From Synechococcus sp. A10-1-5-1 (lineage in GTDB: Bacteria > Cyanobacteriota > Cyanobacteriia > PCC-6307 > Cyanobiaceae): a stretch of DNA of 64,000 nt. How positions within the stretch are numbered: position 1 is the first letter of the stretch; the number at the start of each line of letters is the position of its first letter. A program made the position numbers and the translations under genes. Below are positions 29,608-60,041 of this stretch, in pieces. The notes under the pieces are model-generated. The model saw only the letters and a program-made list of their open reading frames with translations. It was not told the DNA's origin and ran no database searches. The stretch is taken from the NCBI RefSeq assembly GCF_023115425.1, contig NZ_CP096032.1, forward strand, positions 1,612,001 to 1,676,000. The letters run 5' to 3'.

Positions 29608-29743
29608 CGGCGCTGGGACCCCAGGGGTCTCCGATCGGTGGACGTCAGTCCATTGTTCTTTGCCGCCGGTCCCCCCTGATGTGACGGAGGATGCGACTGG
29701 GCTTTTAGGGTGGAGTGCTCCGAGCCCTTGGATGGTTGCCGGC

Positions 29744-30817
29744 ATGATTCCCACCTCTGATCTCCACGTGGTGGAAACCCGGCCCCTCGTGGCGCCCACC
29801 CTGTTGCACGGCGAGCTGCCCCTGAGTGAGGCCGCGGGCCGCACGGTGCGCGAGGCCCGTGAGCGGATCAAGGCCATCCTGCGGGGCGATGACCAGCGCC
29901 TGCTGGTGATTGTTGGCCCCTGCTCGGTCCATGACGTGGATGCGGCGAAGGACTACGCCGCCGCCATTGCTGAAGAGCACAAGCGTCACCGCGATCAGCT
30001 TGAAGTGGTGATGCGGGTCTATTTCGAGAAGCCCCGCACCACCGTTGGCTGGAAGGGCTTGATCAATGACCCCCACCTCGACGGCAGCTACGACATCAAC
30101 ACCGGTCTGCGCCTGGCCCGTGGTCTCCTGCTGCACCTGGCGGACATGGGGCTGCCTGCGGCCACCGAGCTTCTGGATCCCGTTGTTCCCCAGTACATCG
30201 CTGATCTGATCAGCTGGACTGCGATCGGCGCCCGCACCACCGAGAGCCAGACCCACCGCGAGATGGCCTCCGGGTTGTCGATGCCGATCGGCTTCAAGAA
30301 CGGCACCGATGGCAGTGCAATCACGGCCATCAATGCCATGGAGGCGGCCGCACGCCCCCATCATTTCCTGGGCATTAATAAGGATGGTCAAGCCGCCATC
30401 GTCACCACCACCGGCAACCCCGATGGCCATTTGGTCCTGCGGGGCGGTAAGCAGGGCACCAACTACCACCGCGAGGCCATTGAAGAAGCCTCCGCAGCCC
30501 TGGTCAAAGACGGGCTACCGGCTCGGGTCATGGTCGACTGCAGCCATGGCAACTCCAATAAGGACTACCGGCGCCAAGGTGAAGTGGCGGCCGAGGTGGC
30601 CGATCAACTGCGGGCGGGCTCCTGCGATGTCATGGGTGTGATGCTCGAGAGCCACCTGGTGGCGGGCAATCAAAAGATCAGCCCCGATCGCGCAGCCCTG
30701 ACCTACGGCCAGAGCATCACGGATGCGTGCATTGATCTGGAGACGACGCGTGAGGTTCTTGCCGGCTTGGCAGAAGCGGTCGCTGCGACTCAGAGTGCCT
30801 CTGCCGTAGCGGTTTAG
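29744..30817 (+). CDS. 3-deoxy-7-phosphoheptulonate (DAHP) synthase, class I
   Basis: First enzyme of the shikimate pathway: joins phosphoenolpyruvate and erythrose-4-phosphate. Class I (AroFGH-type) motifs are [42 protein letters not shown] and [11 protein letters not shown]. From ATG 29744 it is 357 residues; an in-frame ATG at 29732 adds four. Which aromatic amino acid inhibits it cannot be read reliably, so I give no aroF/G/H letter. A CIRCE palindrome lies 18 bases after its stop. Confidence 0.95.
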
Positions 30818-30835
30818 CTTCCCCGGTTTGCTCAT

Positions 30836-30862
30836 TTAGCACTCGAAGATTACGAGTGCTAA
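30836..30862. promoter_or_regulatory. CIRCE element (HrcA operator)
   Basis: TTAGCACTC, nine bases, GAGTGCTAA: an exact match to the CIRCE consensus bound by the heat-shock repressor HrcA. The flanking T and A extend the palindrome by one pair each way. The arms could themselves serve as promoter boxes (TTAGCA, 17 bases, CTAAAT) for the small gene at 30962. It might also act as a terminator for the DAHP synthase gene, but the U-run is short (TGTTTTC). Confidence 0.85.
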
Positions 30863-30961
30863 ATGTTTTCTGGCCCTCAGTTACCGTTGCGAACTGTTGG
30901 TGATGAGCAGAACTTCCCGCTGAGTTCATGACTTTGAATTCAGCTGGAAAGGGGGCTGCCC

Positions 30962-31210
30962 ATGGCCTATCTGTTGCAGTTTTTTGGCCTGTCTGATCCG
31001 TTGCGGTTGCTCTATCTGCAGCAGAGTGCTGCTGATGGAGCGGGTCCTGTCTTCACCGGCTTCCGTCCCGTTCAGCTGGATGCGTTGATGGCCTGGGCCC
31101 TTGAAACCGCCGGTTGCCGCAACTGGGACGCTGAGCTGACCCAGCTTGTGATGGGTCTCGGGACGCAGCGGGATTGGGAGCGGCGCTGCGAGGCAATGCT
31201 CAGGGCATAG
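30962..31210 (+). CDS. Small protein downstream of a CIRCE element, unknown function
   Basis: An 82-residue protein from ATG 30962 with a ribosome site GGAAAGGGGG. It begins MAYLLQFFGLSDPLRLLYLQ and looks helical throughout, with conserved-looking Trp and Cys residues (LMAWALETAGCRNWDAEL). No chaperone motif, membrane span or known domain is visible. It is the first gene after a perfect CIRCE site, 99 bases upstream, so HrcA-controlled heat induction is a reasonable inference. It overlaps the convergent kinase-like gene by 11 bases. Confidence 0.7.
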   Translation: MAYLLQFFGLSDPLRLLYLQQSAADGAGPVFTGFRPVQLDALMAWALETAGCRNWDAELTQLVMGLGTQRDWERRCEAMLRA

Positions 31211-31877
31211 CGAGTTGCCAGAGATAAGCGGTGGATAACGGCACGCTCAAGTTGTCGATGCCAAAGCCGCTCAGTTGCTCTAGGCCGGTGGCAGTCAGCG
31301 CGATGGCTGCAGCGGCCCCCATGCTGGGTGCTGGGGTCCCCGTCGCCTGAGCCACACCGATCATGAGGGCAAGAACGAGCCAGCTGGTGAGGGCCATGGC
31401 GCCAGTGCCCGCGACAGATTTGGTTTGACCGAAGAGTTGCCAGCGCGGCGAGTTGAGCTGTGGTCCGATCAGTCCGGCCAGCCCATCACCGCAGGCCATC
31501 ACCAGCACTCCGGCGGCTACGGGTAGCGGTTGCTGGGGCCAGTACAGAGCCAACAGAATTGTGATCGAGGCGCCGTAGGCAATCGTTCCGTAGCTGTGGC
31601 GTCCCACGTCTTCGACGGCCGGCAGCAGGCGGAAGCGATGGTTGAGGGCGGTCCCCACGGTGACCAGGGCCGCGGCACTCAGGGCGAGGCCCCGGGGGAT
31701 GGCAAAGGCCCAGGCCAAGAGGACCACCGCGCCCGTACCGATGTGAACAACCTTGCGGCTCCACTCTTTCTGTTGCGGCCAACGCCGGCGTACGGCCAGA
31801 GCGATCAGCAGAACGGTGGCCAGCCATGCCACGACAGCGGCCACGCCGAAGAGCTGTTGCGTGACCACTGGACTCAA
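31200..31877 (-). CDS. Phytol kinase/dolichol kinase family membrane protein
   Basis: A 225-residue integral membrane protein with six to seven hydrophobic segments. The motifs SRKVVHIGTGAVVLLAW, ACGDGLAGLIG and FGQTKSVAGTGAMAL are those of the CTP-dependent polyprenol/phytol kinase family (VTE5-like). Plant and cyanobacterial members recycle phytol from chlorophyll for tocopherol or fatty-acid phytyl use. The substrate here is inferred only from the family. Confidence 0.82.
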   Translation of the reverse strand: MSPVVTQQLFGVAAVVAWLATVLLIALAVRRRWPQQKEWSRKVVHIGTGAVVLLAWAFAIPRGLALSAAALVTVGTALNHRFRLLPAVEDVGRHSYGTIAYGASITILLALYWPQQPLPVAAGVLVMACGDGLAGLIGPQLNSPRWQLFGQTKSVAGTGAMALTSWLVLALMIGVAQATGTPAPSMGAAAAIALTATGLEQLSGFGIDNLSVPLSTAYLWQLAMP

Positions 31878-59976: not shown

Positions 59977-60041
59977 GGCGGGGCAGAAGCCTGACATGAC
60001 TCTGGTTCCGGGATGGGCTGTCCTCTGTTCAGACTGAACAG

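Follow-up and report, generated by a model that had tools for sequence, protein, structure and literature searches.

A conserved CIRCE operator in front of a nameless small gene, a candidate HrcA target in cyanobacteria

Control of groESL and groEL2 by HrcA and its operator CIRCE is established in cyanobacteria (PMC7760821, PMC5381637). The CIRCE-bearing cyanobacterial targets named in the literature consulted here are chaperonin genes. Microarrays of an hrcA mutant pointed to further affected genes, which lack CIRCE (PMC7760821). A CIRCE before a non-chaperone gene has been described for wcw_0502 of Waddlia (Chlamydiota), where HrcA occupancy goes down and expression of the gene goes up under stress (PMC12038028).

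The locus described here resembles the cyanobacterial groESL/groEL2 system in having the same palindrome in a genome with hrcA. It differs in that the target is not a chaperonin gene and in that CIRCE is followed downstream by a conserved dyad and -10-like module separate from it. With wcw_0502 it shares a CIRCE ahead of a non-chaperone gene; the two genes are unrelated and belong to different phyla. In the open-access literature, as far as its consulted parts go, no report was found that links the small gene to HrcA. The class of regulation is known, and the target is new as far as this literature shows; we regard the gene as a candidate for the HrcA regulon that is conserved across many lineages.

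The window, i.e. the whole stretch of 64,000 nt that was analysed, contains the exact palindrome TTAGCACTC-GAAGATTAC-GAGTGCTAA at 30836-30862 (0 mismatches; Table 1). It is the sole CIRCE match at ≤3 mismatches in the window, where 0 are expected, and 100 dinucleotide shuffles of the window gave 0 matches; the palindrome reported in the preliminary description is thereby borne out, and is unique in the window at this threshold. The 2.4-Mb genome contains one further match at ≤3 mismatches, at C1:2054642, with 1 mismatch and upstream of a groES ORF. It should be noted that the CIRCE pattern reversed, used as a control, also matched once genome-wide at ≤3 mismatches, and only sites with 0 or 1 mismatch are therefore informative on their own. 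The gap from the end of CIRCE to the ATG of the small ORF is 99 nt, compared with approximately 89 nt for groES in the same genome. Reading leftwards from CIRCE leads antisense into the DAHP synthase gene, so there is no target on the opposite strand. On the other side, the small gene is followed by a convergent ORF, presumably kinase-like.

Table 1. Features of the locus, in window coordinates
Feature	Position	Strand	Basis
DAHP synthase (class I) gene, aroG	29660..30817	+	Pfam PF00793, E 8e-90; 18 nt from its end to CIRCE; same strand
CIRCE operator TTAGCACTC-N9-GAGTGCTAA, perfect	30836..30862	.	Pattern match and conservation in 104/114 family orthologues
Second dyad, degenerate copy CTGTTGGTGATGAGCAG (consensus CTGTTC-N5-GAACAG)	30894..30910	.	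Conservation in relatives
-10-like TAnnnT position of relatives, reads GACTTT here	30930..30935	+	Comparison with near relatives
Purine-rich, ribosome-binding-like stretch GGAAAGGGGG	30946..30955	+	Label by eye
Small gene of 82 aa, putative HrcA target	30962..31210	+	First ORF downstream of CIRCE; without an 87-bp in-frame stretch of orthologues
ACCCAG at deletion junction	31139..31144	+	In G013, either end of the stretch missing here carries ACCCAG
Convergent ORF, 225 aa, no Pfam match	31200..31877	-	ORF list; bounds the small gene in 55/78 loci tested

The preliminary description had proposed a search for hrcA, and the gene is present in the genome at C1:1825359-1825988 (PF01628, 99.3 bits, above the cut-off). 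In the class, hrcA was found in 268 of 291 genomes. Five family carriers of the small gene have no hrcA match, and all five genomes are <90% complete. The co-occurrence of the small gene with hrcA may be accounted for by a single set of genera in which both are missing. A separate observation concerns genome G429 (locus L231; 99% complete), which has a CIRCE-like site with 2 mismatches before the orthologue and no hrcA match.

The first gene downstream of CIRCE had been described as encoding 82 residues without a chaperone motif. This agrees with the ORF at 30962-31210, whose product gave no match in a Pfam search. The length is correct as read and is not the normal form of the protein, since this copy is a deletion form of a family of approximately 103-128 residues. 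A search with the single sequence gave relatives in 21/60 genomes, the named ones being Vulcanococcus, Cyanobium and Synechococcus-type records. Using a 10-row profile, we found the gene in 117/300 genomes of the family (94/196 good ones). A 47-row profile found it in 118/291 genomes of the class (112/261 good ones), spread over 70 of 130 genera; 11 of the 118 belong to the family. The 44 non-redundant orthologues have 103-128 residues. Intact copies of the small gene are under purifying selection; dN/dS is 0.056 over the full length between those of genomes G013 and G021.

At most 3 of the 47 or 48 members matched any one Pfam or NCBIfam family, the best single E being 0.00027 (2 members), and a comparison with PDB sequences gave best E values of 0.21 and 0.016 without a consistent match. 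The AlphaFold2 model based on 10 rows (pLDDT 55, pTM 0.48) was too poor for a fold search. Viral contigs gave 18 pattern matches, with no relative among them. The protein represents an old, nameless cyanobacterial family and is probably small, soluble and mainly helical.

At ≤5 of 18 arm mismatches, a threshold of our own choice, CIRCE is present upstream of 104/114 distinct orthologues of the family. This number combines three sets of family genomes (69/78, 19/19 and 16/17). The gene is carried by 117 family genomes, of which three were left out of the upstream comparison (G003, at a contig edge, and G151 and G256, partial matches). The second set comprises 20 loci minus G029, which was already in the set of 78; here the best site was taken from the entire locus, and one locus of this set, L024, has a stop inside the frame. 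In the set of 78, CIRCE ends 85-124 bp upstream of the matched start. As controls for 69/78, random windows gave CIRCE at ≤5 mismatches in 1/311, and palindromes with permuted arms gave a mean of 0.43 and a maximum of 4 over the same 78 loci. At the stricter threshold of ≤3 mismatches, CIRCE was found in 52/78 and every control gave 0. The arms also covary: 65 double changes keep the dyad, for example TTGGCACTC...GAGTGCCAA, against 39.7 expected for independent arms, and 44 break it, the sites being related by descent and hence not independent.

Outside the family, 107 genomes had matches and 100 orthologues were fetched; partial matches in G042, G333, G474, G536 and G546 were omitted, as were G406 and G445, beyond the end of the list. 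Within 350 bp upstream, 32/100 of these distant orthologues have CIRCE at ≤5 mismatches (control mean 1.16, max 5) and 25/100 at ≤3 mismatches (controls 0). In family f32, with genomes of 3.8-7.2 Mb, CIRCE precedes the orthologue in 13/13 cases, all with ≤2 mismatches, which makes the pairing directly testable there. Other families with CIRCE-bearing orthologues are f19 (2/2), f22 (1/1), f12 (1/12) and f24 (2/16). The pairing of CIRCE and gene, which was to be looked for in relatives, is thus conserved, with the exception of genus g47 (0/6). Because hrcA is present and the pairing is conserved, two outcomes that the preliminary description had set against its reading, no hrcA in the genome and no palindrome upstream of the orthologues, are absent.

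At ≤5 mismatches, CIRCE is missing upstream of 10/114 family orthologues. Six of these are the fetched members of genus g47 (G070, G115, G141, G162, G180 and G195; L146-L151), which nevertheless have hrcA; apparently, the small gene is without HrcA control in this genus. The site is also absent before the orthologues of G078, G094, G292 and G306, the last of which ends at a contig edge. For 68/100 distant orthologues, the 350 bp upstream contain no CIRCE at ≤5 mismatches. HrcA control would therefore be common and not universal, given g47, G078, G094, G292, these 68 orthologues and the site in G429 without hrcA. On a tree of 177 rows, the family codes need 28 changes (minimum 26) and the CIRCE state 15; 73 forks are open, so that gain and loss of CIRCE are not separable on this tree.

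The neighbourhood was compared in the 78 family loci and in 40 of the 100 loci from outside the family. The aroG gene is upstream of the small gene in 64/78 loci. In the remaining 14, all of genus g5 (L160, L162, L164-L170, L173-L176 and L180), the fetched DNA yielded no aroG and no convergent ORF. CIRCE is present in 13/13 of these having enough upstream DNA; the 14th, L167, is at a contig edge. Conversely, aroG was located in five of six same-genus genomes without the small gene (not in G023; the match in G011 has an internal stop), and in 5/5 of these loci nothing behind aroG comes closer to CIRCE than 7 mismatches. In four of the five, aroG is followed by the apparent convergent ORF (by eye). 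Kept where the neighbours have changed and missing where the gene is missing, CIRCE goes with the small gene and not with aroG. Neighbours were listed for ten distant CIRCE-bearing loci; in about half of these a divergent ORF is located upstream, which the site could then serve as well.

Between CIRCE and the gene we found a second dyad, CTGTTC-N5-GAACAG, at 57/69 sites with ≤3 of 12 mismatches, against a mean of 2.6 and a maximum of 18 for 158 control dyads over the 69 sites. A TAnnnT is located exactly 19 nt beyond the best second dyad in 49/69 sites. If this is the -10 box, the dyad would have its centre near -40, where a class II activator would bind, which suggests a possible activator site. 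The conserved promoter-like module is thus downstream of CIRCE, unlike the usual overlap of operator and promoter for a repressor. Rre1, an activator beside HrcA on chaperone genes, has a role that a protein at the second dyad could have; the motif given for its proteostasis regulon in S. elongatus, in the part of the source consulted, is GTNCGGK (PMC13421787), and by eye the dyad does not spell it. As the mark of a genome-wide regulon the second dyad was rejected, the window's genome and 22 others of its genus having 0-2 exact copies each. One exact copy is found in the window itself, at 60025-60041, with the same letters in G013, and is probably due to chance; we take the ORFs flanking it to be ureD-like and ureA-like.

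Several other explanations of the palindrome have to be weighed. That it terminates transcription of the DAHP synthase gene, and is a CIRCE look-alike by chance, is contradicted and very improbable. The region does contain a hairpin followed by TTTT that was called terminator-like (1 found; shuffles mean 0.7) and its RNA folds well (z -5.67), but the CIRCE letters themselves are kept, beyond a hairpin, and the T-run is not conserved (by eye). CIRCE is moreover kept without an adjoining aroG, and none is found behind aroG in genomes without the gene. The preliminary description also considered a relic of a lost groE operon, CIRCE having been left behind when groESL departed. CIRCE is indeed known from cyanobacterial hsp60 (groE) genes, according to the consulted part of PMC7760821; this proposal is nevertheless contradicted and hardly credible, as groES with its own CIRCE stands elsewhere in the genome, the 40 distant loci contain no groES, groEL or hrcA homologue, and neighbours vary by lineage while gene and CIRCE stay paired. 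It was further proposed that the CIRCE arms themselves make up a promoter, which bound HrcA would block; to this may be added a promoter starting in the CIRCE loop, as published for groES of Synechocystis (PMC2662882, in the part consulted). TTAGCA, 17 nt and CTAAAT can be read in the arms of the window, and in relatives the left arms agree with TTGACA at a mean of 4.26 of 6 positions, in part owing to the fixed arm. The letters are there, but conservation is lacking for the -10 part: over 69 orthologous sites the hexamer 17 nt further along agrees with TATAAT in 1.48 of 6 positions on average, with TAnnnT in 0/69, and the eight best offsets from CIRCE reach just 2.1-2.4 of 6 with no TAnnnT. 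A sigma-70 scan of 30600-31300 gave no promoter. With TAnnnT found instead behind the downstream dyad, an HrcA-blocked promoter of the CIRCE arms or loop is unlikely, and the arms as -35 and -10 boxes are not supported.

A further possibility, compatible with an HrcA operator at this site, is that the window's copy is a decaying gene in which the operator is intact and protein and promoter are impaired; we consider the arguments for and against this to be evenly balanced. The protein is 29 residues short owing to an 87-bp in-frame deletion relative to the orthologues, at ACCCAG repeats, and the deleted block is conserved and includes the near-invariant W69 and W79. Codons unique to the window comprise 16 synonymous and 9 nonsynonymous ones, as against 8:1 and 14:1 in intact sisters; 3 of the 9 agree with outgroup G012 (by eye), leaving at most 6 that are surely the window's own. 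The -10-like TAnnnT of near relatives has become GACTTT. On the other hand, the frame, start codon and ribosome-binding-like stretch are all intact, pairs including the window copy have dN/dS of 0.08-0.17, still <1, and CIRCE is perfect. The copy thus has signs of relaxed constraint and looks weakened behind a perfect operator. If it is decaying, heat induction in this strain would yield a non-functional fragment.

Our preferred explanation, which we hold to be highly probable, is that 30836-30862 is a working-type HrcA operator of the gene 30962-31210, predicted to be heat-responsive together with groESL. In brief, HrcA would be bound at CIRCE in unstressed cells and hold the small gene down. 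Heat or protein damage would occupy GroEL, HrcA activity would be lost, and the small gene would be expressed along with groESL. In relatives, an activator at the second dyad, approximately 40 nt before the presumed start, may add control to a promoter that has a -10-like box only. The small protein would probably serve, next to GroEL, to protect cells under stress. For the window strain, the intact operator would govern a protein that is 29 residues short and looks weakened.

The suggestion of an HrcA target outside the known chaperones is supported, at the level of a candidate, by the presence of hrcA and the conserved pairing of CIRCE and gene. The small gene is a candidate HrcA-controlled gene that is no known chaperone, and probably an old HrcA target of obscure biochemistry and not a groE relic. 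More tentatively, and less likely than not, it marks a further, ancient branch of the HrcA regulon, in which a cyanobacteria-wide dedicated partner of GroEL or HrcA, for example one that helps the chaperonin or one that dampens the response, would be controlled by CIRCE repression and a second site for an activator. The operator has been kept in many lineages, even with different neighbours, making the gene a strong candidate for an unrecognised component of the response to heat and light stress. CIRCE in front of a nameless gene in many cyanobacteria points to a stress protein that has so far escaped notice, of which this strain has a shortened copy.
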